Source: an uncultured Cryomorphaceae bacterium (GTDB lineage Bacteria > Bacteroidota > Bacteroidia > Flavobacteriales > UBA7430). From it: a stretch of 42,925 nucleotides of DNA. Positions 31,526 to 39,600 of the stretch are shown piece after piece. The stretch spans positions 1-42,925 of the forward strand of contig CACDER010000006.1 of NCBI GenBank assembly GCA_902551855.1, in the 5' to 3' direction. Position 1 is the first letter of the stretch. The number at the start of each line of letters is the position of its first letter. The translations under genes were made by a program, and so were the position numbers. The notes under the pieces were generated by a model. That model ran no database searches. It was not told the DNA's origin and saw only the letters and a list, made by a program, of their open reading frames with translations.

Positions 31526-31927
31526 ATGAAAATTTCAGTAATTGGGGGTGGTTATGTCGGACTAGTTTCTGTGACATGTTTTTCTGAGATGGGAAATAAA
31601 GTTCCAATAACAGATAATAACAATCAGAAAATTAAAGATCTAAAAAATGGAATAATTCCAATTTACGAACTAGGTTTGGAGAGTTTGATAATTAAAAATA
31701 TAAATAATTCTAATTTATTTTTTACTACAAATTTTAAAGAAGGTATTAGTAATTCTGACATTATATTTATTGCAGTTGGAACTCCAATGGGAGAAGATGG
31801 ATCAGCCGATTTTAGTTTAATTAAGAAAAAATTGAAAAATTCAATTATTTTTGATGGAAGGAATCAATATAATGAAGAGTATTTAAAATCAGTTGGTTTT
31901 GGTTATATTAAGATTGGTAAGTTATAA
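31526..31927 (+). pseudogene. Internally deleted UDP-glucose 6-dehydrogenase remnant
   Basis: An intact 133-codon frame that joins the NAD-binding start of a Ugd (ISVIGGGYVGLVSVTCFSEMG up to VGTPMGEDGSADFSLI) directly to the extreme C-terminus of the same family (IIFDGRNQYNEEYLK...IGKL). Against the complete ugd at 37258 about 300 central residues are missing, including the dimerisation domain and catalytic cysteine. The frame is preserved across the deletion. The acidic NAD-binding residue also differs (ITDNN for VDID). It cannot be an active dehydrogenase; whether the peptide is made or useful is unknown. It lies 4 bases after kdsA and 3 before the tviB-like gene. Confidence 0.88.
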
Positions 31928-31930
31928 AAA

Positions 31931-33214
31931 ATGGACAATATAAATGAAATAAGTATAATAGGACTTGGTTATGTGGGACTTCCTCTTGCTGTTGAATTTA
32001 GTAAATATTACAAAACTATTGGCTATGACATTAATTCTACTAGGATAAAAGAACTCAACAATTATGTAGATATTACTCTTGAAATTTCTAGAAAAGAATT
32101 GAAAAATGTTATTACTAAAAAAAATAAAAACTCAACTGGGCTATTTTTAAGTAATAATTTAGATTCAATTAAAAATTCAAATATTTATATAATTACAGTC
32201 CCAACTCCAATAGATAGCAGTAAAAAACCTAATTTGAATCCTTTAATAAAGGCGTCAACTGATATTAGTAAGTGTATTAAGAAAAATGATATTGTAATAT
32301 ATGAAAGTACAGTTTACCCTGGAGCTACTGAAGAAATTTGTGTCCCAATCTTAGAAAAACATAGTAAGTTGAAATTTAACTCTGATTTTTTTGTTGGCTA
32401 CTCTCCTGAAAGAATTAACCCTGGTGATAAAAAACGTAAAATTTCTAAAATAATTAAAGTTACTTCTGGCTCAACTAAAAAAACAGCAACTGCAGTTAAT
32501 AATCTATATAAAAAAATAATAACTGCTGGAACCCATTTAGCTTCCTCTATAAAAGTTGCAGAAGCATCAAAAGTGATTGAAAATTCTCAGAGAGATATCA
32601 ATATTGCTTTTGTAAATGAATTAGCTAAAATCTTTAAATTATTAGATATTAATACTAATGATGTTCTTCAAGCTGCAAAAACTAAATGGAATTTTTTACC
32701 ATTTAAACCTGGTCTAGTTGGAGGACATTGTATTGGAGTTGATCCTTATTATTTAGCTCAAAAAGCTCAAGATATAGGTTATTACCCTGAAATTATTTTG
32801 GCTGCAAGAAGGTTAAACGATTCAATGGGCTTTTTTATTTCATCAGAGGTTGTCAAAGAAATGATCAAAGCAGACATTAAAATTAAGAATTCTAATATTT
32901 TAGTTATGGGAGTAACTTACAAAGAAGATTGTCCAGATACTAGAAATTCAAAAGTTATCGATATAATTAATAAGCTATATGAATATAAAATTAATATTGA
33001 TATATATGACCCTTGGGCAAATATTGATGAGGTTAAGCAAAAATTTAGTTTAAATATTTATAATACTTGCCCCTCCAAAAAATACAATTGTATTTTAATT
33101 GCAGTTGCTCATAAGAAATTTTTAAAATTTGATATCAATAATTATAAAGACAAAAAATGTATTATTTATGATGTAAAAGGTATATTAAATAGTTCTCAAA
33201 ATATTACTTTATAA
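31931..33214 (+). CDS. tviB: TviB-type UDP-N-acetylhexosamine 6-dehydrogenase
   Basis: A 427-residue nucleotide-sugar dehydrogenase. The Rossmann motif is GLGYVGLPLAVEF, with GYDINSTRIKEL; VPTPID and YESTVYPGATEE follow. The catalytic cysteine is in GGHCIGVDPYYL. The N-terminal DITLEIS segment and overall pattern match the Vi-polysaccharide TviB/WbpA group, which oxidises UDP-GlcNAc (or UDP-GalNAc) to the uronic acid. Probably supplies an amino-uronic acid to the surface glycan. It directly precedes upxY. Confidence 0.9.
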   Translation: MDNINEISIIGLGYVGLPLAVEFSKYYKTIGYDINSTRIKELNNYVDITLEISRKELKNVITKKNKNSTGLFLSNNLDSIKNSNIYIITVPTPIDSSKKPNLNPLIKASTDISKCIKKNDIVIYESTVYPGATEEICVPILEKHSKLKFNSDFFVGYSPERINPGDKKRKISKIIKVTSGSTKKTATAVNNLYKKIITAGTHLASSIKVAEASKVIENSQRDINIAFVNELAKIFKLLDINTNDVLQAAKTKWNFLPFKPGLVGGHCIGVDPYYLAQKAQDIGYYPEIILAARRLNDSMGFFISSEVVKEMIKADIKIKNSNILVMGVTYKEDCPDTRNSKVIDIINKLYEYKINIDIYDPWANIDEVKQKFSLNIYNTCPSKKYNCILIAVAHKKFLKFDINNYKDKKCIIYDVKGILNSSQNITL

Positions 33215-33241: not shown

Positions 33242-33703
33242 ATGGATGAATATAAAACATATTGGTTCGTATTGTGTACCAAGGCTAGGCAAGAGTTAAA
33301 AGTATCAAAGATTTTAAACCGATTAGGTATTGAAGCATACACCCCAACTAAAATTGAAGTCAAAAATTGGTCTGATCGAATAAAAAAAGTTCGAACTAGT
33401 TTATTGCCTTCAATGGTTTTAGTTAAAATACCAAAAAATAAAGTAAATACAGTTTTTGATATACCAGCAGTAAAAAAGTATTTGTTTGTTAATGGTGTTA
33501 GAGCAAAAGTTTATAATTATGAAGTAGATGCTATGAAAAATTACTTGGATAGTAAATTTGAATCAGACGGGCAAATAAAAATTGGTAATAACATTAATAT
33601 CCCTAATTTAAATCAATCAGGAGAAATTATAGAGGTTAATGCAAGAAAATGTATTGTTCGATTACAACTGCTGGGTGCAAAAATGTCAATTCAATTAAGT
33701 TGA
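33242..33703 (+). CDS. UpxY-type NusG paralog (transcription antiterminator)
   Basis: A 153-residue protein with an N-terminal NGN domain (YWFVLCTKARQELKVSKILNRLGIEAYTP, then SLLPSMVLVKI) and a short C-terminal KOW-like domain (SGEIIEVNARKCIVRLQLLG). It is shorter than housekeeping NusG. UpxY proteins in Bacteroidota promote full transcription of the capsule operon they precede by preventing termination in its leader. Here it stands immediately before a long leader-like region and the polysaccharide locus, the classical position. Membership is clear; the exact target is inferred. Confidence 0.87.
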   Translation: MDEYKTYWFVLCTKARQELKVSKILNRLGIEAYTPTKIEVKNWSDRIKKVRTSLLPSMVLVKIPKNKVNTVFDIPAVKKYLFVNGVRAKVYNYEVDAMKNYLDSKFESDGQIKIGNNINIPNLNQSGEIIEVNARKCIVRLQLLGAKMSIQLS

Positions 33704-33849
33704 TTTAACTCAATATTATTTTTAATGTACAATATTTCATTGTTTTTTTTAAATAAGCTCATTAGTAATAAGTTTAATCCAAAATTTTTAATAAATATGT
33801 CGTAAAAGGATTAGTTGGCGTTATTACTTTTATTTTAATCATTTTTAAT

Positions 33850-33857
33850 TATTTTTG
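33850..33857 (+). promoter_or_regulatory. Candidate -7 box for the capsule-locus leader
   Basis: TATTTTTG matches TAnnTTTG in the otherwise gene-free region after upxY. Transcription from here would give a leader of roughly 125 bases ending at the hairpin and T-run at 33987. No good TTTG partner is visible at the standard spacing. Confidence 0.35.
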
Positions 33858-33941
33858 TTATATAATAGTCATAATATTTAATAGCTATTTATGTGGCTTT
33901 AATCGGCGGAGCCTCGCCCGAATTATACTATTCTATTAAAT

Positions 33942-33987
33942 AATACTTAATAAATTCAAATTAAATTTGAGTTAAGTATTTTTTTTT
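33942..33987 (+). terminator. Terminator-like hairpin with T-run in the leader (candidate UpxY target)
   Basis: AATACTTAA (33942-33950) pairs with TTAAGTATT (33972-33980), and an inner TCAAA/TTTGA stem (33956-33960 with 33966-33970) extends the hairpin across an asymmetric internal loop. A run of nine T (33979-33987) follows. It lies about 240 bases after the upxY stop and before the downstream capsule genes, so it is either the terminator of the upstream operon or an attenuator overcome by UpxY. Confidence 0.6.
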
Positions 33988-34318
33988 GTTGTGGCCTATG
34001 ATATTGAAGTAAAATGTCTGTCAAATTTAAAAAGACAAAAAAATTAACTATATAATACAGTTAACAATCGATAATAAATATTATGACAAAAGTCACTAAA
34101 ATAAACATAATAAGCAACGGCGGCGTATTTGGTTCTGGGGGCTGGTAGGCTTTGGAATTTAAAGACTAAAACTGAGACATATTTATGTTTTAGAAAAAAT
34201 TTATATAATAAAATATTACATTACACCATCAAGAAAAAAAATAATTTCACAACATATTTAAGCTAAATTACAATTAAATTATCATTACTTTATTTATAAA
34301 TAAATTTAATTAAATAAT

Positions 34319-34704
34319 ATGAGATTTTTCGTTGATACCAAAAGTTTAAATCAAATTAAAGAAGTGTAAGATCTTGGTGTAATCCTCGACATTATAAAAT
34401 ACCAGTCTTTAGTGTCTGAGGAAGATATATCAAAATCTAAAAAAATTTTAGATCAATATAAATTTATATCTGATATTATAGATAATAATGTATCTGCCTA
34501 AGAACACAATTTTTTGCGAGTTTTTGGTGGAAGTGTCTCTATAGTTTTAGCACCAAAAAGCTATTGCCACTAGAATTTGTATCTACTAATAATACATTTA
34601 GTGAATCTGCAAATTGCACACAGTTAACGCACAAATACGGCTTAGATATCGATGGTATTTCAGAAAAAACTCTGAAAATACTTTACAGAAAGTATATTCT
34701 TTAA
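34319..34704 (+). pseudogene. Decayed transaldolase / fructose-6-phosphate aldolase-like gene
   Basis: The frame from ATG 34319 reads MRFFVDTKSLNQIKEV then a stop (34367-34369). It continues in frame as DLGVI and, after a damaged stretch, QSLVSEEDISKSKKILDQY and ISDIIDNNVSA before another stop near 34499. This follows the N-terminus of the TalC/FSA family (xFFxDTAxxxEIK...GVxDGxTTNPSLxxKE...GxVSAE). The remainder is spread over several frames and poorly recognisable. Several stops and shifts make it a pseudogene. It directly precedes an intact SIS isomerase gene, so the two probably once belonged to one sugar-phosphate pathway. Confidence 0.65.
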
Positions 34705-34743
34705 AATTTACTAAAAGTTTGAAAATAATAAATAAAAAAAAAC

Positions 34744-35367
34744 ATGGAAGATTATGCTAAATGTTACATTGAGACATTTCATACTGGTATTAAAAATACA
34801 AAATATAAAATAAGTGGACAGAAACTAAATTCTAGCTCATTTTTTCATGAATTGAACGAAAAGATTAAAAATGTCAAAGAAAATGAAGGTAGACTCTTTT
34901 TCTTTGGAAACGGTGGTAGCGCTTCTTTTTCAAATCATATGGCTCTAGATTGGTCAAAAAATGGTGGAATATTAGCTTTTTGTCTCAGCGACAGTGCAAT
35001 GCTAACAGCTCTAGGAAATGATTATGATTTTGAGCAATGTTTCTTAGAATTTTTAAAAATTAATTCGCCGACTTCTAATGATTTAGTAGTTACTACTAGC
35101 TCTAGTGGAAATAGTAAAAATATTGTTAAAGTTCTTGAACACTGCAAAAAAAACAAAATAAGTAGTTTCGGTATGAGTGGTTTGAATGAAGGAAATAAAA
35201 CTGAAATTTTATCAGATTTTTCACTTTTTGTTCCAATGAAGACTTATGGAATGGTTGAGTGTATTCATCAACTGTTTCATCATATATTTCTAGATAATTA
35301 TATGGGAATTGAAGAATGGAACAAGACGGAACCTCAAAATATGGACGCATCAAACTTTAAATTATGA
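34744..35367 (+). CDS. SIS-domain phosphosugar isomerase, GmhA-like
   Basis: A 207-residue protein with the SIS fold: FFFGNGGSASFSNHMALDW near residue 52, TTSSSGNSKNIVKVL, and the late MVECIHQLFHHIFLDNY that matches the catalytic Glu and His of sedoheptulose-7-phosphate isomerases. By family it would convert a ketose phosphate such as sedoheptulose-7-phosphate to an aldoheptose phosphate. It is intact although the genes on both sides are decayed. Its TGA overlaps the ATG of the ruined oxidoreductase (ATGA), showing an original operon order transaldolase-SIS-oxidoreductase. Precise substrate unknown. Confidence 0.82.
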   Translation: MEDYAKCYIETFHTGIKNTKYKISGQKLNSSSFFHELNEKIKNVKENEGRLFFFGNGGSASFSNHMALDWSKNGGILAFCLSDSAMLTALGNDYDFEQCFLEFLKINSPTSNDLVVTTSSSGNSKNIVKVLEHCKKNKISSFGMSGLNEGNKTEILSDFSLFVPMKTYGMVECIHQLFHHIFLDNYMGIEEWNKTEPQNMDASNFKL

Positions 35368-35498
35368 TCAGAGTAGGAGTAGCTGGGTAGGGTAAAATTA
35401 GAAAATTAAGAGCTAAAATTTTATCGGAAAGAATTGATTTAGAAATAGTTGGTATTTATGATCCTCAATAGTCTGATAGAAATGATGATGGATTAATG
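35364..35498 (+). pseudogene. 5' fragment of a Gfo/Idh/MocA-family oxidoreductase gene
   Basis: The frame from ATG 35364 reads MIRVGVAG, a stop (35388-35390), GKIRKLRAKILSERIDL and EIVGIYDPQ, another stop, then SDRNDDG. Without the stops this is the NAD(P)-binding start of a Gfo/Idh/MocA sugar oxidoreductase (VGVAGxGKxGxxRAxxL...LEIVGIYDP). Two nonsense mutations are visible. The gene is cut off at about 35499, where sequence copied from the end of the UDP-glucuronate epimerase gene begins, so most of it is lost. Confidence 0.72.
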
Positions 35499-35792
35499 AA
35501 TTGTCTTACTAAAGTTATTGAAAAGAATATTGACCCCAGAAAACATTATAAAATATACAATATTGGGAACAACAAAACTGTAAGCTTACAAGACTTTATA
35601 AATACTATTGAGATTGCTATGGGTAAAAAAGCAATTAAAAAAATGTACCCAATGCAAAAAGGAGATGTTCCAAGGACATTTGCTGATATAACAGAATTAA
35701 TAAAAGATTATAAATATTCTCCTAGTACAGATATTATGTCGGGTATTGAAAACTTTGTAAATTGGTTTATGAATTACAACAAAAATAAATGA
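35496..35792 (+). pseudogene. 3' fragment of a UDP-glucuronate epimerase gene (duplicated)
   Basis: Encodes the last ~97 residues of the epimerase whose complete copy is at 38584-39600; the peptide differs at one residue in the shared part (DPRKH for DSRKH) and at the first residue. It lacks the whole NAD-binding domain and catalytic Tyr/Lys, so it is non-functional. The frame continues in phase from the decayed oxidoreductase fragment to its left. It overlaps the galE start exactly as the complete copy overlaps wecB. Confidence 0.92.
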
Positions 35793-35806
35793 TAAAAAAA
35801 ATATTA
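35499..35806 (+). repeat. 308-base direct repeat, left copy
   Basis: Matches 39307-39614 at a constant offset of 3808 bases with a single difference that I find (C at 35535, T at 39343). It contains the last ~96 codons of the epimerase, the overlapping start codon and the first codons (MIKKIL) of the next gene, galE here and wecB in the other copy. Just left of the repeat both copies share a GATGAT motif, a possible microhomology at the junction. Confidence 0.95.
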
Positions 35807-36784
35807 GTTACAGGAGGAGCAGGATATATTGGATCGCATACTGTTATTGAATTATATAAGGTCGGATATATGCCTATAATTATTGATAATTTATGTAATA
35901 CTACCGACCAAAATTTGTTTGGAATAAATAAAATTTTAAGAACTAATATTCCATTTTATAAAATTGATTGTAGTGATTTAAGTCAAATGCAAAAATTTTT
36001 TAAGACTCATAACGATATATATGCTTGTATTCATTTTGCAGCTTATAAGTCCGTTAGTGAGTCTATTGAAAATCCAAAAAAATATTATGATAATAATATT
36101 GGTTCTACTGAAGTATTATTAAAATGTTTAGAGAAAAGTAATTTTAAAAATTTAATTTTTTCTTCTTCATGTACTGTTTATGGTATGCCTGATATACTTC
36201 CAGTCGATGAAAAGGCTCCATTTAAAAAAGCTGAATCCCCATATGGTGAGACAAAGCAAAAGTGTGAAATTTTAATAAACTCAAGCTCATGTAATAGTAT
36301 ATCTCTAAGATATTTTAACCCTATTGGCTCTCATAATTCTGGACTAATTGGTGATTGCTCTAGTGATAATGCTAGTAATTTAGTACCAATTGTTGCAGAA
36401 GTTGCATGTGGAATCCGTGATAAATTAATTGTAAATGGAGATGATTACGATACCAAAGATGGTACTTGCATTAGAGATTACATTCATGTTCAAGATTTAG
36501 CGGTAGCTCACGTCAAAGCCTTAAATTATTTATTAGAAAACAAAGTTAAAGAGGTGTTTAATGTTGGAACTGGAAACGGATTAAGTGTTTTAGATATTAT
36601 AAATACGTTTGAAGAAGTAAATAAATTGAAAGTTAATTATAATTTCGGACCAAGGAGATTGGGTGATATACAAGAAATATATTCAGATGGTGATAAAATA
36701 ATGAATGTCCTTAGATGGAAAGCAGATAAAACCATTAATGAAGCTTTAATTTCAGCTTGGAATTGGCAAAAATCAAAAAAATAA
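35789..36784 (+). CDS. galE: UDP-glucose 4-epimerase
   Basis: Interconverts UDP-glucose and UDP-galactose with bound NAD+. The Rossmann motif GGAGYIGSHT is at the N-terminus; FAAYKSVSESIENP, SSSCTVYG and the catalytic SPYGETKQK with Tyr and Lys follow; RYFNPIGSH and GTCIRDYIHVQDLA are GalE hallmarks. At 331 residues it is complete. Its start codon and first six codons belong to the 308-base repeat, so the junction was created or used by the recombination event. A decayed gene follows. Confidence 0.95.
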   Translation: MIKKILVTGGAGYIGSHTVIELYKVGYMPIIIDNLCNTTDQNLFGINKILRTNIPFYKIDCSDLSQMQKFFKTHNDIYACIHFAAYKSVSESIENPKKYYDNNIGSTEVLLKCLEKSNFKNLIFSSSCTVYGMPDILPVDEKAPFKKAESPYGETKQKCEILINSSSCNSISLRYFNPIGSHNSGLIGDCSSDNASNLVPIVAEVACGIRDKLIVNGDDYDTKDGTCIRDYIHVQDLAVAHVKALNYLLENKVKEVFNVGTGNGLSVLDIINTFEEVNKLKVNYNFGPRRLGDIQEIYSDGDKIMNVLRWKADKTINEALISAWNWQKSKK

Positions 36785-38583: not shown

Positions 38584-39600
38584 ATGAAAATATTAGTGAC
38601 TGGTGCAGCTGGATTTATTGGATTTCATACTTGTTTAAAATTAGTAGACCTAGGTCATGATGTTTATGGCATTGATAATATTAATGATTATTATGACCCA
38701 AAATTAAAGTTTGATCGATTAAATGAATTAGGTTTTAGTCCAGATGCAACAAAAATCTTTAAAGCTGAAGTTAAAAGTTCTAAATTCAATTCTTTACGAT
38801 TTTCTAGAATAGATCTAGTTGATCATGAAATTATTGATAATTTATTTAAACAAGAACAATTTGAAGTAGTTTGTAATCTAGCTGCTCAAGCGGGTGTTCG
38901 ATATTCCATAGAAAATCCTAAATCATACATTGATAGTAACATCTCAGGGTTTATAAATATTCTTGAAGGATGTCGAAATCATAAAGTAAGACATTTAGTT
39001 TATGCTAGCAGTTCTAGTGTATACGGAGAAAATAAAAAAATACCTTTTGAAACAAATGATAATGTAGATCATCCCATTAGTTTATACGCTGCTACAAAAA
39101 AGAGCAATGAATTAATGGCCTACAGCTATGGACATTTGTATGACTTTAAAACTACTGGATTACGTTTTTTTACTGTTTATGGAGCTTGGGGAAGACCAGA
39201 TATGGCTTATTATTTATTTACTGATGCAATTTCAAATAATCACCCTATTAAAGTTTTTAATAATGGTCAAATGGAGCGTGATTTTACATATATAGATGAT
39301 ATAATAAATTGTCTTACTAAAGTTATTGAAAAGAATATTGACTCCAGAAAACATTATAAAATATACAATATTGGGAACAACAAAACTGTAAGCTTACAAG
39401 ACTTTATAAATACTATTGAGATTGCTATGGGTAAAAAAGCAATTAAAAAAATGTACCCAATGCAAAAAGGAGATGTTCCAAGGACATTTGCTGATATAAC
39501 AGAATTAATAAAAGATTATAAATATTCTCCTAGTACAGATATTATGTCGGGTATTGAAAACTTTGTAAATTGGTTTATGAATTACAACAAAAATAAATGA
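38584..39600 (+). CDS. UDP-glucuronate 4-epimerase
   Basis: A 338-residue extended SDR: GAAGFIGFHTC at the N-terminus, IDNINDYYDPKLK, NLAAQAGVRYSIENP, SSSSVYG, the catalytic Tyr and Lys in SLYAATKKSNE, and ERDFTYIDDI. AAQAGVRYSIENP with NDYYDPKLK is the pattern of UDP-glucuronate 4-epimerases making UDP-galacturonate. The preceding ugd supplies the substrate, with the start directly after its stop. The last ~96 codons are duplicated at 35499-35806. It overlaps wecB by 4 bases. Confidence 0.92.
   Translation: MKILVTGAAGFIGFHTCLKLVDLGHDVYGIDNINDYYDPKLKFDRLNELGFSPDATKIFKAEVKSSKFNSLRFSRIDLVDHEIIDNLFKQEQFEVVCNLAAQAGVRYSIENPKSYIDSNISGFINILEGCRNHKVRHLVYASSSSVYGENKKIPFETNDNVDHPISLYAATKKSNELMAYSYGHLYDFKTTGLRFFTVYGAWGRPDMAYYLFTDAISNNHPIKVFNNGQMERDFTYIDDIINCLTKVIEKNIDSRKHYKIYNIGNNKTVSLQDFINTIEIAMGKKAIKKMYPMQKGDVPRTFADITELIKDYKYSPSTDIMSGIENFVNWFMNYNKNK

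Follow-up and report, generated by a model that had tools for sequence, protein, structure and literature searches.

What does a NusG paralog do when its gene lies among sugar-nucleotide genes and is followed by a stretch free of genes? The question is raised by the window, by which we mean the whole 42,925-nt stretch of DNA that was analysed, contig C6 of a draft genome (1.13 Mb, 80% complete, 79 contigs) of an uncultured Cryomorphaceae bacterium. The original prediction was that the gene encodes a UpxY-type antiterminator that lets polymerase pass a terminator-like leader and thereby switches on a capsule operon. Our analyses indicate that the interval 33242-33990 is likely to be a cassette consisting of a UpxY-like NusG paralog and, downstream of it, a promoter-bearing leader with its own loading site, and that a short DNA signal common to many flavobacteria probably loads the factor onto polymerase ahead of surface-sugar genes. 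As judged by sequence comparison, the conserved part of the leader is a GC-rich block and not the terminator. The features concerned are as follows.

31931..33214, + strand: TviB-like nucleotide-sugar dehydrogenase gene, directly upstream of the upxY-like gene and kept in the sister genome G001
33242..33703, + strand: UpxY-like NusG paralog, NGN plus KOW, 153 aa, intact ORF with zero stops
33850-33857, + strand: Bacteroidota-type -7 box TATTTTTG (TAnnTTTG), identical in G001
33878..33902, + strand: predicted RNA hairpin just 5' of the core, possible pause hairpin (window fold z -0.87)
33892..33895, + strand: TGTG, the 5' half of the bipartite element, 13 nt ahead of the core
33905..33916, + strand: GGCGGAGCCTCG, ops-like core with a candidate GC-GGA-GC mini-hairpin, the conserved GC-rich block
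33943..33987, + strand: AT-rich hairpin with nine T (T9 hairpin), candidate intrinsic terminator, in this genome only
34744..35367, + strand: phosphoheptose-isomerase-like (SIS) gene, the first intact gene past the leader
35789..36784, + strand: galE-type epimerase gene, the first gene past the leader in G001

The product of the upxY-like gene matches the N-domain model of Pfam NusG (E 9e-10), and an AlphaFold2 model (mean pLDDT 82.7), whose best Foldseek matches are NusG and RfaH, has the NusG/RfaH fold and four C-terminal strands, as expected of an NGN-plus-KOW protein. Its best NCBIfam model is antiterm_UpxY (NF033644), with a score of 76.5 bits that misses the cut-off of 100, and a relative in genome G039 that is 48% identical to it scores 100.8 bits; the RfaH equivalog model (23.1 bits, cut-off 144.5) and the LoaP model (25 bits, cut-off 125) are also missed. 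Thus the predicted NusG paralog is borne out, and its UpxY label holds in the weaker form of UpxY-like. The one other NusG match in the genome adjoins secE-, rplK- and rplA-like genes (identified by eye), and no relatives of the paralog were found in viral contigs. Polysaccharide-precursor (sugar-nucleotide) genes recognised by Pfam and NCBIfam models lie on either side of the paralog, as expected of a UpxY gene, which belongs in a polysaccharide operon; a search for an adjacent upxZ found matches in 0 of 10 genomes and likewise in 0 of 14 controls. The sister genome G001 has the same gene order and a paralog 88% identical to that of the window. Upstream of the TviB-like gene, a 133-aa ORF at 31526-31927 corresponds to the N-terminal part only of a UDP-sugar dehydrogenase and is likely a gene remnant.

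In Bacteroides fragilis, UpxY is likewise a NusG paralog encoded within a polysaccharide operon with a leader (from the excerpts available of PMC7819879 and PMC7593976), and that leader lies upstream of upxY (same excerpt of PMC7819879). Here, promoter and element lie 150-215 nt past the upxY-like stop codon, and the protein scores under the UpxY cut-off. Because the leader is downstream here and upstream there, the match of arrangements that had been claimed does not hold.

The region past the paralog is indeed gene-free, with zero ORFs of at least 90 aa in 33704-34743, and its first 330 nt are 75% identical to those of G001. Promoters of the Bacteroidota carry a -7 box with the consensus TAnnTTTG, and the predicted promoter box, TATTTTTG, fits that consensus. 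The -33 box is weak, and a sigma-70 scan gave no excess of promoters over shuffled sequence, this promoter type being outside the scope of such a scan. A TAnnTTTG box 53-58 nt ahead of the core is present in 16 of 30 sequences, including the window (-55) and G001 (-57), and it is absent at this distance from the leaders of family 12, which seem to be read from upstream. We infer that transcription starts near position 33864.

The GC-rich block that had been pointed out proved to be one half of a bipartite element of the form TGTR-N9-RGCGRAGCY(GTR). The window has a single match to TGTRN9RGCGRAGCY, as compared to none in 100 shuffles; at 0 mismatches the element occurs once in the 1.13 Mb of its own genome and once in the sister genome, each time after upxY. 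Prior to any pattern search, the same GC-rich core had been seen after the upxY genes of the nearest relatives from other genera (48-57% identical). A pattern-free count identified GGCGAAGCC as the commonest 9-mer within 350 nt 3' of upxY, at 32 of 80 loci (the best 80 of 568 relatives), and found it upstream of upxY at 1 of these 80. Among the same 80 named loci, a phylogenetically uneven set, the element is present in 47, on the coding strand only (46 minus L178, whose site is probably due to chance), and absent in 33. Allowing at most one mismatch and spacings of 0-18, the N9 spacing accounts for 30 sites and the minus strand for 0.

Across 395 genomes of the order, the full pattern gave 31 matches in 29 genomes and the reversed-pattern control gave 6; 20 of the 31 lie within 600 nt of a UpxY match on the same strand, the other 11 include one second leader, in G278, that shares its region with an upxY gene, and several of the 10 that are not beside a UpxY match look like chance matches in coding sequence. 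Conversely, 19 of 30 UpxY loci in the order carry the element within 600 nt at no more than 2 mismatches, and one more does so with an N8 spacing. The element was found in 0 of 7 loci at which the paralog lies beside alaS (identified by eye), outside polysaccharide operons. Among UpxY loci sampled across the phylum, the exact 12-base core occurs nearby in 5 of 30 and the full bipartite form in none, leaving 25 of 30 without the element; the signal thus reaches beyond the order yet is not general. Where a first ORF past the element was scored, it encodes a UDP-sugar (sugar-nucleotide) dehydrogenase in 24 of 45 cases, and the median gap from element to next ORF is 44 nt. Other members of the family to which the window belongs (L017-L023) have an element-free NusG paralog about 30% identical to that of the window, beside merR and alaS (by eye).

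To what extent does the core behave as a hairpin? A set of 73 sequences (L178, G300, G027 and G085 having been removed) yielded 64 distinct ones, and since these were chosen by a pattern with 1-2 mismatches, the invariance of the core bases is partly built in. Within them, core positions 1 and 9 covary (GC 46, AU 6, GU 6, AC 2, and TA, CG, TT and CC one each; n=64), with a Fisher p of 0.0004 on purine/pyrimidine cells, uncorrected for kinship. By DNA energy parameters, which are not known to carry a bonus for GNA loops, the core is stable by only -0.6 kcal/mol, and under the same limit the window 15-mer gave no excess over shuffles.

The same covariation would be explained equally well were the element to act as RNA, with UpxY binding a hairpin of the nascent transcript in the manner of LoaP, which binds an RNA hairpin according to the portion of PMC12691694 consulted, or with the leader being a structured RNA. 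In all 30 sequences a helix is indeed predicted, and its end falls 0-5 nt short of the core (mean z -1.12, one +1.03); in 28 Flavobacterium-type leaders the named upstream hairpin, picked after the alignment was viewed, is 83% paired, with compensatory changes, as compared to 29-46% in slid controls and none as high among 1000 shuffles. However, the sequence of this hairpin varies while the ops-like core and the TGTG at fixed distance are kept, the core is the size of ops, which acts as DNA (PMC5995543, in excerpt), and an Rfam search gave no match, so that we consider action through RNA unlikely. The hairpin before the core is often weak, in the window as in several relatives, and RNAalifold, run on the 28 leaders, predicts the core stem alone and not the upstream hairpin. 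Separately, the leaders of family 12 and of G039 (L052-L058) have a second hairpin, of the form ACTACCnnnGGTAGTC, 20-40 nt ahead of the next gene; it is also present in G001 and G278.

A loading site made of DNA, the reading we prefer, finds a parallel in the ops element of Escherichia coli, a 12-nt G-rich core that likewise stands ahead of sugar operons and that, in the excerpt consulted of PMC5995543, takes the form of a hairpin in non-template DNA, which RfaH recognises. Aligned without gaps, ops, GGCGGTAGCGTG (as given in that excerpt), and GGCGAAGCCGTG are identical at 8 of 12 positions; ops itself is absent from the window leader, where the core is GGCGGAGCCTCG. GNA and GNNA loops closed by two G-C pairs are described as forming extraordinarily stable DNA mini-hairpins (PMC4686876, in the part available), and a mini-hairpin of this kind, its loop being G...A, can arise in both ops and the flavobacterial core (excerpts of PMC5995543 and PMC4686876). 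Unlike ops, whose loop in that excerpted account is G4-A7, the core here would have a GNA triloop, and unlike RfaH (model score 23.1 against a cut-off of 144.5 bits) the window paralog is encoded beside its own putative target. LoaP of Bacillus velezensis is similarly described, in partial accounts, as a NusG paralog loaded in a leader that contains terminators, but it reads a UNCG hairpin of RNA, and the window protein reaches 25 bits on its model, for which the cut-off is 125.

The original prediction gave a central place to the terminator. The T9 hairpin is real, its stem (33943-33979) and T-run (33979-33987) folding better than shuffles (z -2.80) and ranking third of the 254 runs of at least six T in the window; a generic terminator scan misses it because that scan requires three G-C pairs. 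In G001, part of the stem is kept and the T-run is absent, and Flavobacterium leaders have just ~20-50 nt between the element and the next ORF, leaving no room for such a hairpin. A leader terminator is therefore ruled out as a conserved feature, and what survives of the predicted leader is its promoter and a site of the factor-loading type ahead of polysaccharide genes. Processive anti-pausing or antitermination fits the protein family better than does read-through of one leader terminator. A strong hairpin placed where a run of genes ends, with an extra 1.76 kb of remnants beyond it, would also suit a plain 3' terminator of a tviB-upxY transcript, the stretch before it being a non-regulatory tail; such a terminator would, however, follow a conserved promoter box and an element that relatives keep free of terminators, and we regard this account as quite improbable.

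The ~1.76 kb between the leader and galE is absent in the sister genome and consists of a stop-ridden frame, the phosphoheptose-isomerase-like gene, which is missing at the equivalent place in G001, and a 297-bp duplicate of the end of a nearby epimerase gene. In this mosaic (34030-35790, missing in the sister), the frame with many stops is at 34319 and a Gfo/Idh-like fragment (Pfam E 0.07) at 35368; the segment 35494-35790 is a 99.3% copy of 39302-39598. A second GC-rich block, GGCGGCGTATTTGGTTCTGGGGGCTGGTAGGCTTTGG (34119-34155), past the end of the interval first described, lies within DNA of 26% GC; it is unlike the element, is missing in the sister, and was set aside as a relative of it. 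A conserved short peptide at 33989-34045 was also dropped, the differences between the window and G001 being mostly amino-acid changes (by eye).

These remnants bear on whether the window copy is itself active. Core positions 10-12 read TCG here and GTR at the other loci, and the window copy is the worst of the 64, being alone in having C at position 11 (T in all 63 others). This copy could thus be a decaying relic of a system that works in relatives, the site having been lost here; it alone carries TCG and not GTR, a broken-gene mosaic lies downstream, and the genome is an 80% complete draft in 79 contigs. Against this, upxY is intact and 88% identical to that of the sister, the promoter box, the hairpin and the bipartite spacing are all kept, and C followed by G still fits the Y-1 G+1 pause rule. 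We think complete loss rather unlikely. Because of the TCG end of the core and the remnants absent in the sister, the leader may nevertheless be weakened or a relic here while the system is sound in relatives, and the activity of the window copy is uncertain given that the most aberrant element is followed by gene remnants.

How might a leader of this kind load its factor? RNA polymerase would start near 33864, form a short hairpin, and pause at the ops-like core about 50 nt into the transcript. During the pause, the non-template GCGGAGC (GCGAAGC in most relatives) could form a GNA mini-hairpin of great stability and the TGTG would sit in the duplex of the upstream fork; the UpxY-like protein would recognise this paused complex, remain bound, and suppress pausing and termination across the polysaccharide genes. 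Among the terminators suppressed in the window would be the T9 hairpin, which lies 26 nt past the core. Work by Saba (2024) reportedly found that UpxY recognises a paused polymerase by way of the non-template strand and the upstream duplex, RNA hairpins assisting. Another paper, in the part available, cites that work for the upstream duplex contacts.

UpxY and ops are already known, and the element is a variant of the UpxY/RfaH-ops design; we found no published description of it in the open-licence papers searched. It offers a candidate target site, defined by sequence, for UpxY-like proteins, of which Flavobacteriia have a large group, many of them in culturable species, so that operons under UpxY-like control would be predictable from sequence. 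More tentatively, and as a possibility we hold somewhat less probable than its negation, flavobacterial NusG paralogs may be loaded through a bipartite signal whose core, d(GCGNAGC), is a non-template mini-hairpin. With ops as the GNNA counterpart of this GNA design, loop length and loop base could form a recognition code shared by RfaH- and UpxY-type factors across phyla. If this is true, nature would be using as a regulatory signal a DNA fold familiar from chemistry, and the recruitment of RfaH and UpxY would come under one structural rule that is testable base by base. Finally, at locus L085 (G278:C25:9458-9482) the leader element occurs for a second time, ~4 kb 3' of the first copy in that genome; the core bases of this copy are compensated, which suggests that an operon can have more than one target site.
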